A DNA stretch of 64,000 nucleotides, taken from positions 62,001 to 126,000 of the forward strand of contig JAGLOO010000024.1 of assembly GCA_023138875.1 (NCBI GenBank), in the 5' to 3' direction. Within the stretch, counting starts at the first letter, position 1. The number at the start of each line of letters is the position of its first letter. A program made the translations under genes and the position numbers. This document shows positions 49,311-55,060 of the stretch, piece after piece. This DNA comes from Bacteroidales bacterium. Lineage in GTDB: Bacteria; Bacteroidota; Bacteroidia; Bacteroidales; GCA-2748055. Below the pieces are notes generated by a model that was not told where the DNA came from, did not search any database, and worked only from the letters and a program-made list of their open reading frames with translations.

Positions 49311-50060
49311 ATGCGAATTCTCGTTTGTATTAGTAATGTTCCGGATACCACCACCAAGGTGAAGTTTTCGAACGACAACACAGCCTTTGATGACAGCGGG
49401 GTACAATGGATCATTAACCCCTGGGATGAACTGGCCCTGACAAGGACTATGGAGTTGAAAGAGGACGCTTCCAATCCGGTTTCCAACGTAACGGTTGTTA
49501 CTGTAGGACCAGCCGGAGCCGAGCCAACCCTCAGAAAAGCGTTGGCCATCGGAGCCGATGATGCCATCAGGGTTGATGCTGAATCCGGGGATGCTCATTT
49601 TGTGGCTGCCCAGCTTGCGTCGGTGGTAAATGACGGAGAATATGATATGATCTTTTGCGGCATTGAATCAAGTGATTACAATGGATCAGCCGTGGGAGGT
49701 ATGCTATCCGAGATGCTCGATATTCCCTCCGTTTCAGCGGTTTCATCCCTGCGTATTGAAAATGGGGAAGCTGTGATCACCAGGGATATTGACGGTGGTA
49801 AAGAAGAGGTGTCGGTCCCCACTCCATTTGTGGGTGTGGTGCAAAAGGGAATAGCTAAGGAACCCAGGATCGCAGCCATGCGCGGGATCATGATGGCCAG
49901 GAAAAAGCCCCTGCAGGTAGTCCCTGCCATTGAAGCCGAACCGTTAATCCATTACCAGGAGTATGTGATGCCCGAACCGAAGGCTCCCTGCAAAATGATT
50001 GAGGCAGACCAGGTAAAAGAACTGGTGAACCTGTTGCAGAATGAGGCAAAAGTGCTCTAA
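49311..50060 (+). CDS. etfB: Electron transfer flavoprotein, beta subunit
   Basis: A 249-residue EtfB. The N-terminal CISNVPDTTTKVKFSNDN, the AMP/FAD-region IINPWDELALTRTMEL, VGPAGAEPTLRKALAIGADDAIRVD, and the recognition segment near FCGIESSDYNGSAVGGMLSEML are as in the family. It accepts electrons from acyl-CoA dehydrogenases together with EtfA. First gene of a five-gene operon ending with an acyl-CoA dehydrogenase. Confidence 0.95.
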   Translation: MRILVCISNVPDTTTKVKFSNDNTAFDDSGVQWIINPWDELALTRTMELKEDASNPVSNVTVVTVGPAGAEPTLRKALAIGADDAIRVDAESGDAHFVAAQLASVVNDGEYDMIFCGIESSDYNGSAVGGMLSEMLDIPSVSAVSSLRIENGEAVITRDIDGGKEEVSVPTPFVGVVQKGIAKEPRIAAMRGIMMARKKPLQVVPAIEAEPLIHYQEYVMPEPKAPCKMIEADQVKELVNLLQNEAKVL

Positions 50061-50097: not shown

Positions 50098-51066
50098 ATG
50101 TCAGTATTAGTATATACCGAGAACTGGGATGGCAAATTTAAAAAACTCTCCCTTGAATTGGTCTCCTATGCTTCCAGTTTGGCCAAAATGGTCGGAGGAA
50201 GCGTTACCGCACTATCCATTGGAAAAGTAGAACAGGATGAACTGTCAGCTCTTGGCGCCTACGGTGCTACAAATGTCCTGAGTGTAGATGATGCTCCGGG
50301 TGGACTTGATAACCAGCTCTATACAAGTATTATTACCGCAGCAATGGAAATGACCGGGTCGAAAGTCCTGGTACTGGCCCACAACAATACAGGAAAAGCA
50401 ATTGCCCCCAGATTGTCGGTCAGGTTAAAAGCAGGCCTTGCTACCGGAGTTACAGCACTACCGGAATCTGTTGATCCATTGGTGGTGCCTAAGAAAGTAT
50501 TCAGTGGCAAAGCATTTGCAAAGGTGAAGATCCTGACCGATTCAGCCATCCTGACACTGGCACAGAATTCATTTGAACTGACCGAGACAGGAGGTTCAGC
50601 ATCCATTGAGGCATTTGATCCTGGAGTGGATGTGGCAGGTGTAAGAACCAGTATAAGGGATGTTCAGAAGCAGGAGGGTAAGCTGCTGCTTTCGGATGCC
50701 GAAGTTGTAATCTCCGGTGGCAGGGGAATGAAATCTACTGATAACTGGGGTCCCATCGAGGAACTGGCTGAGGTACTTGGAGGAGCAACAGCATGCTCCA
50801 GACCTGTATCTGATGAAGGCTGGCGCCCCCACGAGGAGCATACCGGACAGACAGGGAAGATCATTGCCCCCAATCTGTACATGGCATTTGGTATTTCGGG
50901 TGCCATTCAGCACCTGGCTGGAGTAAGCTCTTCAAAGTGCATTGTTGCAGTGAACACTGATAAAGATGCACCCATTTTCGAAGCAGCTGATTACGGGATT
51001 GTCGGGGACGCCCTGAAAGTACTTCCTGAGCTGGTTACAGAGATAAAGGCTGCAAAGGCCCAGTAG
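50098..51066 (+). CDS. etfA: Electron transfer flavoprotein, alpha subunit
   Basis: A 322-residue EtfA. The C-terminal FAD domain has ISGGRGMKSTDNWGPIEELAEVLGGATACSRPVSDEGW, then HTGQTGKIIAPNLYMAFGISGAIQHL and NTDKDAPIFEAADYGIVGD. The FAD moves electrons from dehydrogenase to a quinone reductase. It is 37 bp after etfB and 20 bp before the membrane Fe-S gene. Whether the pair bifurcates cannot be decided by eye. Confidence 0.95.
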   Translation: MSVLVYTENWDGKFKKLSLELVSYASSLAKMVGGSVTALSIGKVEQDELSALGAYGATNVLSVDDAPGGLDNQLYTSIITAAMEMTGSKVLVLAHNNTGKAIAPRLSVRLKAGLATGVTALPESVDPLVVPKKVFSGKAFAKVKILTDSAILTLAQNSFELTETGGSASIEAFDPGVDVAGVRTSIRDVQKQEGKLLLSDAEVVISGGRGMKSTDNWGPIEELAEVLGGATACSRPVSDEGWRPHEEHTGQTGKIIAPNLYMAFGISGAIQHLAGVSSSKCIVAVNTDKDAPIFEAADYGIVGDALKVLPELVTEIKAAKAQ

Positions 51067-51086: not shown

Positions 51087-52421
51087 ATGACAAATCAAAT
51101 CATTTTTCTGGCTACGTTGCTGGTCACCCTGCTGGCTTTTGGCTACACAATACGCAGGTTTGTGGGTTTTTTCAGCATCACCCGGGCGGGATTTCCTGTC
51201 AGGCAGATCGGGCGTCGCATCGGAGTGATGCTTGAAGTGGCCATTGGCCAGACAAAGATTTTTCGCAGACCGGTCATGGGATTTTTGCATGCCCTGGTTT
51301 TCTGGGGATTCTGTGTGATCCTCATCGGAAGTGTCGAAATGGTGATTGATGGTTTAACAGGAAAGGAACGGGTGCTTTCCTTTCTCGGAGTTGTTTATGA
51401 TATCATCATGGCCTCGGGAGATGTGTTTGCCCTGATCATTACGTTAGCCATCATTGTTTTTCTTGCCAGGAGGGTATTCCTCAATGTGAAGAGGTTCTCC
51501 GGTATTGAAATGAAACATATTTCACACCTGGATGCCAATGTAGCGCTCACCATGATCCTTTTGCTGATGCTGTCACTGCTGGGAATGAATGTGTTTTATG
51601 TCCAGGCTACCCTTCAGGCAGGTCATGAGATAGCAGGTTATTACCCCGTTGGTCGGCTTCTGGCATCATGGATCGATACGGATGCCCACACCAGTGAAGT
51701 ATTGTACCAGGTCAACTGGTGGATGCATATTCTGCTCATCTTCATTTTCGCCAATTATCTGCCGTATTCAAAGCATTTTCATGTATTTATGTCGGTACCC
51801 AATGTATTCTTAAGTCGCCTGGATCCTCTGGGCAAACTGGATACCATGGAGAGCATTACGAAAGAGGTAAAGATCATGATGGATCCGGAGCAGGCATTTT
51901 CTTCACCGGCCGAAGGAGAAGGGGAAGAAGAGGTCCCGGAACGATTTGGCATTCTCGATATAGAGGATATAAGCTGGAAAAGCTACCTGGACTCCCTTTC
52001 GTGTACCGAGTGTGGCCGATGTACATCGGTTTGTCCGGCCAATATTACCGGGAAGAAATTGTCGCCCAGAAAGATCGTGATGGATGTGAGGGCCAGGATG
52101 AAGGAAAAAGGCCCCGGAATTTTGAAGATCGGGAAGGAGTATACGGATGAAAGGTCCCTGATCAGGGATTTTATTTCGGAAGAGGAATTATGGGCATGCA
52201 CCCTGTGTAATGCGTGTGCACAGGAATGCCCTATCAATATTAACCAACCTGCCCTGATCGTGGGGATGCGGCGATACCTGGTCATGGAAGAATCTGCAGC
52301 GCCTGGGGAACTGAATGCAATATTTTCCAACATCGAAAATAATGGTGCTCCCTGGCAATTCTCCCAGGAAGACAGGATGCTCTGGGCAGAGGATATAGTG
52401 ATCAATGAAAAGAGCCAGTAG
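51087..52421 (+). CDS. Membrane cytochrome b/[4Fe-4S] protein (EtfAB-quinone oxidoreductase type)
   Basis: A 444-residue protein with five membrane segments (about 4-21, 65-86, 110-129, 150-170 and 210-226), resembling NarI/HdrE-type cytochrome b subunits; His68 and His214 are candidate heme ligands. A cytosolic C-terminal part holds two [4Fe-4S] motifs, Cys306/309/312/316 (CTECGRCTSVCP) and Cys371/374/377/381 (CTLCNACAQECP). It lacks the CCG domain, which is encoded separately by the next gene. In related one-piece proteins (EMO family) this module passes electrons from EtfAB to menaquinone. That role here is inferred from the operon. Confidence 0.82.
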   Translation: MTNQIIFLATLLVTLLAFGYTIRRFVGFFSITRAGFPVRQIGRRIGVMLEVAIGQTKIFRRPVMGFLHALVFWGFCVILIGSVEMVIDGLTGKERVLSFLGVVYDIIMASGDVFALIITLAIIVFLARRVFLNVKRFSGIEMKHISHLDANVALTMILLLMLSLLGMNVFYVQATLQAGHEIAGYYPVGRLLASWIDTDAHTSEVLYQVNWWMHILLIFIFANYLPYSKHFHVFMSVPNVFLSRLDPLGKLDTMESITKEVKIMMDPEQAFSSPAEGEGEEEVPERFGILDIEDISWKSYLDSLSCTECGRCTSVCPANITGKKLSPRKIVMDVRARMKEKGPGILKIGKEYTDERSLIRDFISEEELWACTLCNACAQECPININQPALIVGMRRYLVMEESAAPGELNAIFSNIENNGAPWQFSQEDRMLWAEDIVINEKSQ

Positions 52422-52423
52422 GT

Positions 52424-53224
52424 ATGGAAACAAGTCAGAAAAAAGTTAAGGTACCTGTAATTGCGGATCTGTTTTCACAGGGGAAGAAACCCGAATACCT
52501 TCTCTGGGTGGGAAGTGCCGGAGCGTTTGACGATCGATACAAGCATGTTTCCCGTGCTTTTGTTAAGGTGCTGGATCAACTGGGCATTTCGTATGCTGTG
52601 CTGGGAACGGAGGAATCGTCCAGTGGGGATGTGGCCCGCAGGGCTGGAAACGAGATGCTCTTTCAGATGCAGGCGTTGATGAATATCGAGATCTTTGAGG
52701 GCTATGAAGTAAGGAAAATCCTTACCTGTGATCCGCATGCATACAATACATTTAAGAACGAGTATCCCGATCTGGGTGGCACATATGAAGTGATCCATCA
52801 TACACAGTTCCTTCGTGACCGGATTGCTGACGATTCATTGAAGATCCCGGGTAACGCCCTGGCAGGGAAGACCATTACTTTTCATGATCCCTGCTACCTG
52901 GGTCGGGCCAACAGGGAATACAATGCCCCGCGACAGGTTCTGGAAGCCATGTCAGTCACCAGGAAAGAGATGAAAAGGAACATGAGTTTTGCCCTCTGCT
53001 GTGGTGCCGGCGGTGGACAGATGTTCAAGGAGGCTGAAAAAGGAGAAAAGGAAGTGTTTATTGAGCGGACCGAAGAGGCACTCGAAACGGGGGCAGATAT
53101 CATTGCCACGGCATGTCCCTATTGCATGGTGATGATCACCGATGGGCTGAAATATAAGAATAAGGAAAAGGAAGTTAATAATTACGATATTGCTGAACTG
53201 GTGGCATTTGCCCTGGACCTTTAA
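52424..53224 (+). CDS. CCG-domain iron-sulfur protein with degenerate first half
   Basis: A 266-residue protein of the HdrB/LutA/GlpC-like CCG family, starting 2 bp after the cytochrome/Fe-S gene. The second CCG motif is intact: Cys157 (DPCYLGR), Cys192/193 (LCCGAGGG) and Cys231/Cys234 (ACPYC). The first one is not: the WVGC position is Ser31 (WVGS), the central cysteines are replaced by ESSSGD (64-69), and the final CPHC reads CDPHA (102-106), leaving only Cys102. So only one noncanonical cluster is likely. It probably docks on the preceding protein to form a split EtfAB:quinone oxidoreductase. Confidence 0.8.
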   Translation: METSQKKVKVPVIADLFSQGKKPEYLLWVGSAGAFDDRYKHVSRAFVKVLDQLGISYAVLGTEESSSGDVARRAGNEMLFQMQALMNIEIFEGYEVRKILTCDPHAYNTFKNEYPDLGGTYEVIHHTQFLRDRIADDSLKIPGNALAGKTITFHDPCYLGRANREYNAPRQVLEAMSVTRKEMKRNMSFALCCGAGGGQMFKEAEKGEKEVFIERTEEALETGADIIATACPYCMVMITDGLKYKNKEKEVNNYDIAELVAFALDL

Positions 53225-53275: not shown

Positions 53276-55060
53276 ATGGAAAACAAGAGACTAATAACCG
53301 GGGGAGAGTTCATGGTGAAGCAAACCGATCCGGCTGATGTTTTTATCCCTGAAGAACTTGATGAAGAGCAGAGAATGATAGGGGAGACCTGCCAGGATTT
53401 TCTGGATACAGAAGTATTTCCGGTACTTGATCAAATCGATGCACAGGAAGAAGGTTTGATGAGGAAACTACTGGCCAAATCCGGAGAACTCGGGTTACTC
53501 GGGATCGCCATCCCGGAGGAGTATGAGGGATTCGGACAATCCTTCATTACAACAATGTATTCCAGTGAGATCCTGGGTGCTGGTTACTCCTATGCTGTTG
53601 CCTATTCCTGTCATACCGGGATTGGTACGTTGCCCATTCTTTATTACGGGAACGAGGAACAGAGAAAAAAATATATACCCAGGCTGGCTACCGGAGAATT
53701 GGTGGGAGCCTACTGTCTTACAGAACCGGGTGCGGGCTCGGATGCCAATTCGGGGACTACGAAAGCCGTACTTTCAGAAGACGGAAAACACTATATCCTG
53801 AATGGTGCCAAGATGTGGATCACCAACGGTGGATTTGCGGATGTGATGACTGTCTTTGCAAAAATTGACAATGACCGGGTATTAAGTGCTTTTATTGTAG
53901 AGAGAGATTTTCCAGGGATCACCTTCAATCCGGAGGAGAAGAAGATGGGGATCAAAGGTTCCTCCACACGGCAGATATTCTTCAATGATTGCAAGGTTCC
54001 GGTTGAGAACCAGCTGGGTAAGAGAGGTGAAGGTTTCAGGATCGCTCTGAATATCCTGCATATGGGACGCATCAAGCTGGGAGCCAATGTAATCGGTTCT
54101 GCCAAAACAGCCATCAGTCAGTCTGTAGGATATGCCAATGAAAGAAAGCAATTTAACTGTCTGATCTCACAATTTGGGGCCATCAAGCATAAACTGGGTG
54201 AGCAGGTGATCAGGACTTTTGCCACGGAGAGTTCAGTATACCGTGCAAGCCAGGCGTTGGATGATGCCATTGCGCATTATGTGGCCAATGGCGATGACAA
54301 GGGTCGGGACACCATGAAAGCATTCAATCATTTTGCTGTAGAGGCTGCAGCCATGAAGGTGTTCGCTTCAGAATCATTGGAATACGTTGTGGATGAGGCC
54401 GTGCAGATCTATGGTGGTATGGGTTTTTCAGCAGAAATGCCGGTAGACAGGGGGTACAGGGATTCAAGGATCAACAAGATTTTTGAAGGTACCAATGAGA
54501 TCAACCGGTTACTGCTGGTAGATAGTATCCTGAAAAAGGGAGCGAAGGGTGTACTTCCCATTATGGAGGAAGCGGAGAAAGCCTTTGAGGAGGTTAAGAA
54601 CCTGAATGGTACCGGGACGGATACCACAGGGTATTTTGAAGAGAAGGATAAGTACATTGCCAACTTCAAGAAGATTGTACTGATGCTTCTGAAAGCTGCC
54701 TCCGAGAAATTTACCCGTTCACTGGTGACCGAGCAGGAGATACTGAGCAATATTTCCGACTGTATCATTCAGCTGTATGCCGCTGAATCTGTGGTGCTCC
54801 GCCTTAAGAAAATGGAAGCTTTGAAGAGTGAGGAAGAGATGAAGATCTACAGGGAAATTGCCGATGTATTCGTATACGATGCTGCAGCGCAAATCAGCAA
54901 GTTTGCCAGTGATACAACTTACTCCTTCGCCAATGGTGAGGTATGTGAACTGCTTGAAAAAGGGATCTCCCATTTTACTGCAGTAGCTGGCGTAAATGTG
55001 AAAGAAGCCCGCAGAAAGATCGCTGACCGGTTGATTGAAGAGAATAAATACTGCTTCTAA
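53276..55060 (+). CDS. Acyl-CoA dehydrogenase (long form)
   Basis: A 594-residue FAD enzyme. The core of about 410 residues has YCLTEPGAGSDANSGTTKA (FAD and substrate loop), MWITNGGFADVMTVFA, VYGGMGF-like IYGGMGFSAEMPVDRGYRDSRI, and the base Glu404 in KIFEGTNEIN. A C-terminal helical extension of about 170 residues resembles the membrane-associated tail of VLCAD/ACAD9. It oxidises acyl-CoA to enoyl-CoA and passes electrons to EtfAB, encoded upstream. Chain-length preference is unknown. Confidence 0.93.
   Translation: MENKRLITGGEFMVKQTDPADVFIPEELDEEQRMIGETCQDFLDTEVFPVLDQIDAQEEGLMRKLLAKSGELGLLGIAIPEEYEGFGQSFITTMYSSEILGAGYSYAVAYSCHTGIGTLPILYYGNEEQRKKYIPRLATGELVGAYCLTEPGAGSDANSGTTKAVLSEDGKHYILNGAKMWITNGGFADVMTVFAKIDNDRVLSAFIVERDFPGITFNPEEKKMGIKGSSTRQIFFNDCKVPVENQLGKRGEGFRIALNILHMGRIKLGANVIGSAKTAISQSVGYANERKQFNCLISQFGAIKHKLGEQVIRTFATESSVYRASQALDDAIAHYVANGDDKGRDTMKAFNHFAVEAAAMKVFASESLEYVVDEAVQIYGGMGFSAEMPVDRGYRDSRINKIFEGTNEINRLLLVDSILKKGAKGVLPIMEEAEKAFEEVKNLNGTGTDTTGYFEEKDKYIANFKKIVLMLLKAASEKFTRSLVTEQEILSNISDCIIQLYAAESVVLRLKKMEALKSEEEMKIYREIADVFVYDAAAQISKFASDTTYSFANGEVCELLEKGISHFTAVAGVNVKEARRKIADRLIEENKYCF

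Follow-up and report, generated by a model that had tools for sequence, protein, structure and literature searches.

The window analysed here, a stretch of 64,000 nucleotides from a Bacteroidales bacterium, carries on its + strand an operon encoding an EtfD-type EtfAB:quinone oxidoreductase, a type of membrane enzyme that feeds electrons from the oxidation of fatty acids into the respiratory chain. All four protein ligands of iron-sulfur cluster D1 have been lost in it and those of every other cluster retained. We consider it highly probable (about 85%) that this is an ordinary EtfD/EMO-type EtfAB:menaquinone oxidoreductase that works without D1, the FAD of ETF reducing cluster D2 directly. 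The five genes of the operon are, in order:

49311-50060, + strand: EtfB, the sole ETF beta in the genome (family match and genome search).
50098-51066, + strand: EtfA, the sole ETF alpha in the genome (family match and genome search).
51087-52421, + strand: membrane/ferredoxin half of the oxidoreductase (family match; alignment to EtfD, phmmer E 4.3e-46).
52424-53224, + strand: CCG (cysteine-rich) half of the oxidoreductase, without cluster D1 (ORF from ATG to TAA, 266 aa).
53276-55060, + strand: acyl-CoA dehydrogenase (NCBIfam NF058590, Bacillus FadE type, 721 bits against a cut-off of 600).

The last of these matched a Bacillus-type FadE model, yet its close relatives in the search were from Bacteroidota.

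The CCG ORF starts two bases past the stop codon of the membrane-half ORF, and its product is a homologue of the 476-747 region of EtfD from Mycobacterium smegmatis (PDB 9ojn; phmmer E 7.6e-67). The only cysteines in its translation are residues 102, 157, 192, 193, 231 and 234, and the Pfam CCG match is confined to the second half of the protein (residues 151-238). An AlphaFold2 model based on a 55-sequence alignment (pLDDT 89.8) superimposed on EtfD 9ojn with a Z score of 29.4 and an rmsd of 3.0 over 253 residues (VIA-align); the scores of the same model against HdrB (Z 20-21) and against unrelated racemases (Z about 7) were both well below this. The first CCG half is thus predicted to keep its fold without cluster ligands. 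For a homologue in which the two halves are naturally fused (L016), the model reached a pLDDT of 65, too poor for placing them relative to each other. The CCG fold, the D2 ligands, the membrane domain encoded by the adjacent gene and the link to EtfAB and an acyl-CoA dehydrogenase are all features of an EtfD/EMO-type enzyme.

In EtfD, D1 is a linear [3Fe-4S] cluster held in the first CCG site by Cys503, 538, 581 and 584, and D2 is a noncubane [4Fe-4S] cluster held in the second site by Cys637, 672, 673, 709 and 712 together with His583; D3 and D4 are cubane clusters, and a b heme is held by His78 and His241 (PMC13083937). Alignment of the window proteins to 9ojn gave 0/4 of the ligands of D1, 6/6 of D2, 8/8 of D3 and D4, and 2/2 of the heme. 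The positions in the CCG gene, read from this alignment and, for the lost ligands, also from homologues, are:

52514-52516, + strand: Ser31, at the position of EtfD Cys503; D1 ligand lost.
52619-52621, + strand: Ser66, at the position of EtfD Cys538; D1 ligand lost.
52727-52732, + strand: Cys102-Asp103, Asp103 replacing EtfD Cys581; D1 ligand lost.
52736-52738, + strand: His105, equivalent to EtfD His583; sixth D2 ligand, kept (in 283/283 homologues).
52739-52741, + strand: Ala106, at the position of EtfD Cys584; D1 ligand lost.
52892-52894, + strand: Cys157, equivalent to EtfD Cys637; D2 ligand kept.
52997-53002, + strand: Cys192-Cys193, equivalent to EtfD Cys672-673; D2 ligands kept.
53114-53125, + strand: Cys231 and Cys234, equivalent to EtfD Cys709 and Cys712; D2 ligands kept.

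In the membrane half the heme-b ligands are His68 and His232 (EtfD His78 and His241) and the eight D3/D4 cysteines are residues 306, 309, 312, 316, 371, 374, 377 and 381. Two of the three heme-contacting arginines of EtfD are kept (R129 and R311); Met142 takes the place of the third. The original prediction that the second CCG half keeps five cysteines and that the first has lost its ligands is borne out by this map, in which all five are D2 ligands and Ser31, Ser66, Asp103 and Ala106 occupy the four D1 positions. It had also counted Cys102 as a surviving ligand of the first half, but that assignment was one residue off register: Cys102 aligns with EtfD Thr580, one residue ahead of the lost Cys581, and is therefore not a leftover D1 ligand, so that the count is zero out of four and not one. 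Nor is the first half inert, since it is the donor of His105.

By analogy with EtfD we infer the following electron path, cluster content and quinone reduction for the window enzyme. Acyl-CoA dehydrogenases would reduce EtfAB, and the FAD of ETF would pass single electrons straight to D2 (Cys157, 192, 193, 231 and 234, with His105), bypassing D1. From D2 the electrons would travel through the cubane D3 and D4 to the b heme in the neighbouring protein (51087-52421), which would reduce menaquinone. The first CCG half would have been retained as a scaffold, as the donor of His105 and as an ETF-facing surface, and the former D1 pocket would be lined by small or polar residues. In an AlphaFold 3 model of EtfD the FAD lies about 11.6 Å from D2 and 12.5 Å from D1 (PMC13083937), which makes direct transfer from FAD to D2 physically plausible; whether ETF electrons enter EtfD at D1 or at D2 was left open in that structure paper. 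The same distances bear on the earlier proposal that two clusters in series had become one: it stands insofar as two CCG clusters would now be one, but for EtfD itself a serial arrangement is still a hypothesis.

The loss of the D1 ligands is not due to chance or sequencing error, because it is common to every same-genus locus with a readable first half, at identities down to about 75%, and because dN in comparisons with the window is alike in the two CCG halves (0.07-0.11 and 0.10-0.13) while dS is above 1 or saturated. The dN and dS values indicate that the CCG protein is under purifying selection of similar strength in both halves, and invariant residues occur across both halves of the homologue alignment. 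These observations also bear on the idea that the CCG half is decaying and non-functional. The loss of four ligands would fit such decay, but the same loss in all readable members of the genus and in other families of the clade, the similar dN at near-saturated dS and the invariant residues in both halves speak against it, as does the fact that this is the only EtfD-like protein in the genome; we regard decay as barely credible. A search of the genome gave no second EtfD-like protein, and the sole other CCG match was a partial one (G000:C3:40197-40391, L002) inside a 950-aa open frame. As there is also a single EtfAB pair, no D1-bearing paralogue is present as a stand-in.

Among 283 full-length homologues that were read, an uneven sample in which a pattern search had selected D1-less forms, the four D1 cysteines were all present in 103 and all absent in 161, whereas 18 had one, a single homologue had two and none had three. 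Loss of the D1 ligands is thus nearly all-or-none, and the five D2 cysteines were kept in 270/283. Leftover-one-cysteine intermediates read S-C-D-S at the four positions in Flavobacteriaceae and S-D-C-D in Bacteroidales. An even sample of the order Bacteroidales contained a homologue in 112/247 genomes; of 110 that were read, 53 had four D1 cysteines, 46 had none and 11 had one (57/110 D1-less). Related genomes beyond the genus carry the motifs WVGC, E[ST]CTGD and CPHC. The DNA pattern D-P-H-x-[YFSC]-N...N-[ED]-Y gave at least 119 records and, among the matches listed, these came from Bacilli, Halobacteria, Desulfobacterota, Chloroflexota, Pseudomonadota, Flavobacteriaceae and Bacteroidales.

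Three Bacteroidales homologues (L236, L261 and L275) and two from another class of the phylum (L348 and L349) carry five cysteines in the first CCG site, as HdrB does; the extra one is at the position of EtfD Thr539, where CTG reads CCG. To judge from the motif, it could permit a complete noncubane cluster. In a single order, therefore, the first CCG site is found with five ligands, with four or with none. With the operon remaining the same, this constitutes a natural experiment on electron entry in EtfD, in which the D1-less variants imply that D2 can serve as the entry point and provide matched pairs for testing.

The residues at the emptied site are patterned. Cys102 was present in 94/179 rows having one D1 cysteine or none, against 6/103 four-cysteine rows, and Cys102-Asp103 (TCDPH) recurred in all D1-less groups of Bacteroidia and was seldom seen in four-cysteine forms. 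On the tree the association of Cys102 with D1 loss had a consistent direction, with no more than 4 independent pairs that were supported. In the Bacteroidia rows the covariation between residues 66 and 106 is perfect: D66 occurs only with D/E106 (44 rows) and S/T66 only with A/V/S106 (32 rows). Both patterns could reflect packing of the emptied pocket. It is unlikely, although conceivable, that the D1 site was refitted in Bacteroidota, with Cys102-Asp103 and the 66/106 pair tuning D2 or binding another metal; if so, an ETF:quinone oxidoreductase whose entry cluster is poised differently would have evolved in parallel several times. Quite improbable, in our view, is the more general proposal that the vacated site binds another cofactor or metal through Ser31, Ser66 or Asp66, Cys102, Asp103 and Asp106, so that a redox or structural centre persists. 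The recurrent Asp103, the enrichment of Cys102 and the 66/106 covariation would agree with it, but none of the conceivable ligand sets is conserved: Ala106 is the residue in the lineage of the window, position 66 varies among S, D, N, T, Y, H, F and A, and the Bacilli have mostly Ile102. Moreover, one cysteine is unable to hold a cluster, the Cys102 association comes down to the few independent pairs mentioned above, and outside Bacteroidia it was the search pattern itself that selected for Asp103.

In other classes of the phylum the close homologues have the four D1 cysteines, as do most of those from Bacteroidia, which contradicts the possibility that the family never had them. Two more distant members of the phylum (L346 and L347) lack D1 and carry Asp in place of Cys234. 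On a 67-row tree built with the D1 trait columns omitted, D1-less rows fell into three separate groups, namely Flavobacteriaceae (support 100/97), a Bacteroidales group (99/95) and the group of the window (92/88), and the starred branches force three changes in Bacteroidia. None of 200 bootstrap trees had fewer than three changes for the four-cysteine label, and in none (0/200) did a single branch separate the four-cysteine rows from all others. The AU test did not reject a single clade of all D1-less Bacteroidia (p 0.149), despite a difference of 41.7 log units. About three losses of D1 within Bacteroidia from a four-cysteine ancestor are therefore our best estimate rather than proof. Regain of the cysteines had been suggested by FastTree with D1-less outgroups only; four-cysteine outgroups and a mixture model gave losses. 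In one tree with four-cysteine outgroups the four-cysteine row L275 lay, with weak support, inside the group of the window, and this may be a single case of regain. The Bacilli rows lay outside the Bacteroidota clade on the trees, with four-cysteine members between, so that the loss in the window is an event separate from the FadF-like one and of the same kind by convergence. Some three losses within Bacteroidia, and its absence from other lineages as well, indicate that D1 is dispensable.

The original prediction also pointed out that the CCG protein is split from its membrane partner. This is true of the window but irrelevant to the loss of D1, as most same-genus homologues are single frames of about 700-740 aa in which the membrane and CCG halves are fused, and the fused or split state flips about 10 times on the tree of the order. 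The split in the window is a local, labile feature that does not go along with D1 loss. In Bacteroidales 32/57 D1-less homologues were fused, compared with 5/53 four-cysteine ones (48/53 of the latter being split). From the two features, both present in the window, a distinct minimal class of EtfAB:quinone oxidoreductase had been proposed, defined by D1 loss plus separation from the membrane subunit. We consider such a class very unlikely: the linkage between the two features is the reverse of the one it requires, D1-less forms arise repeatedly, the same protein and operon occur with and without D1 in one order, and FadF and DgcB are already reported precedents (PMC13083937). In two further loci, L360 (G382) and L374 (G554), the genes for the membrane half and the CCG half are about 0.7-1.8 kb apart, with other sequence between them.

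The partners in the operon are likewise unchanged with D1 status, since the five-gene arrangement EtfB-EtfA-membrane-CCG-acyl-CoA dehydrogenase was found in both kinds (5/20 D1-less and 8/20 four-cysteine Bacteroidales loci of ±7 kb). An apparent link seen earlier between D1 loss and a neighbouring acyl-CoA dehydrogenase was gone with these ±7 kb loci. Heme-copper oxidases (COX1 family, above cut-off) showed no association either, being present in 26/40 D1-less and 29/40 four-cysteine genomes.

Among known systems, methanogen heterodisulfide reductase HdrB shares the two-CCG fold at about 19% identity, but it has two catalytic noncubane clusters, one per half, whereas the first half of the window protein is without ligand cysteines. 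The EMO of syntrophs and Geobacter (that of Agne et al. 2021) is said to have the same proposed reaction and the same domain set, a likeness by description only. EtfD resembles the window enzyme in its CCG fold, in all its D2, D3, D4 and heme ligands and in its link to ETF; it differs in that it has four D1 cysteines, consists of one 1042-aa chain and ends in a long, disordered C-terminal tail, none of which applies to the window protein (9ojn; PMC13083937). The absence of the four D1 cysteines places the window protein outside the D1-bearing, linear-[3Fe-4S] EtfD subgroup. The 2026 EtfD paper states that FadF of Bacillus subtilis and DgcB of Pseudomonas aeruginosa lack the D1 cysteines and infers that they receive ETF electrons at D2 (PMC13083937), so the central claim of a D1-less enzyme is already known for other members. 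As in the window, His105 and the D2 cysteines are conserved in the homologues from Bacilli that were read (WVGSMG, KEKNSGD, TIDPHAYN), but these are fused chains outside the Bacteroidota clade; FadF and DgcB themselves are likened by the description in PMC13083937. The window protein thus shares with the FadF/DgcB-type group the trait (D1 absent, D2 kept) but not common descent with the Bacilli.

Asp was found at the position of the D2 ligand Cys234 in 12/283 rows, all of them D1-less, and one more row had Glu. These rows include L073, L077, L070, L086, L090, L156, L167, L346 and L347, and come from Pseudomonadota, Chloroflexota, Calditrichota and others. Judged by this substitution, the coordination of D2 varies too.
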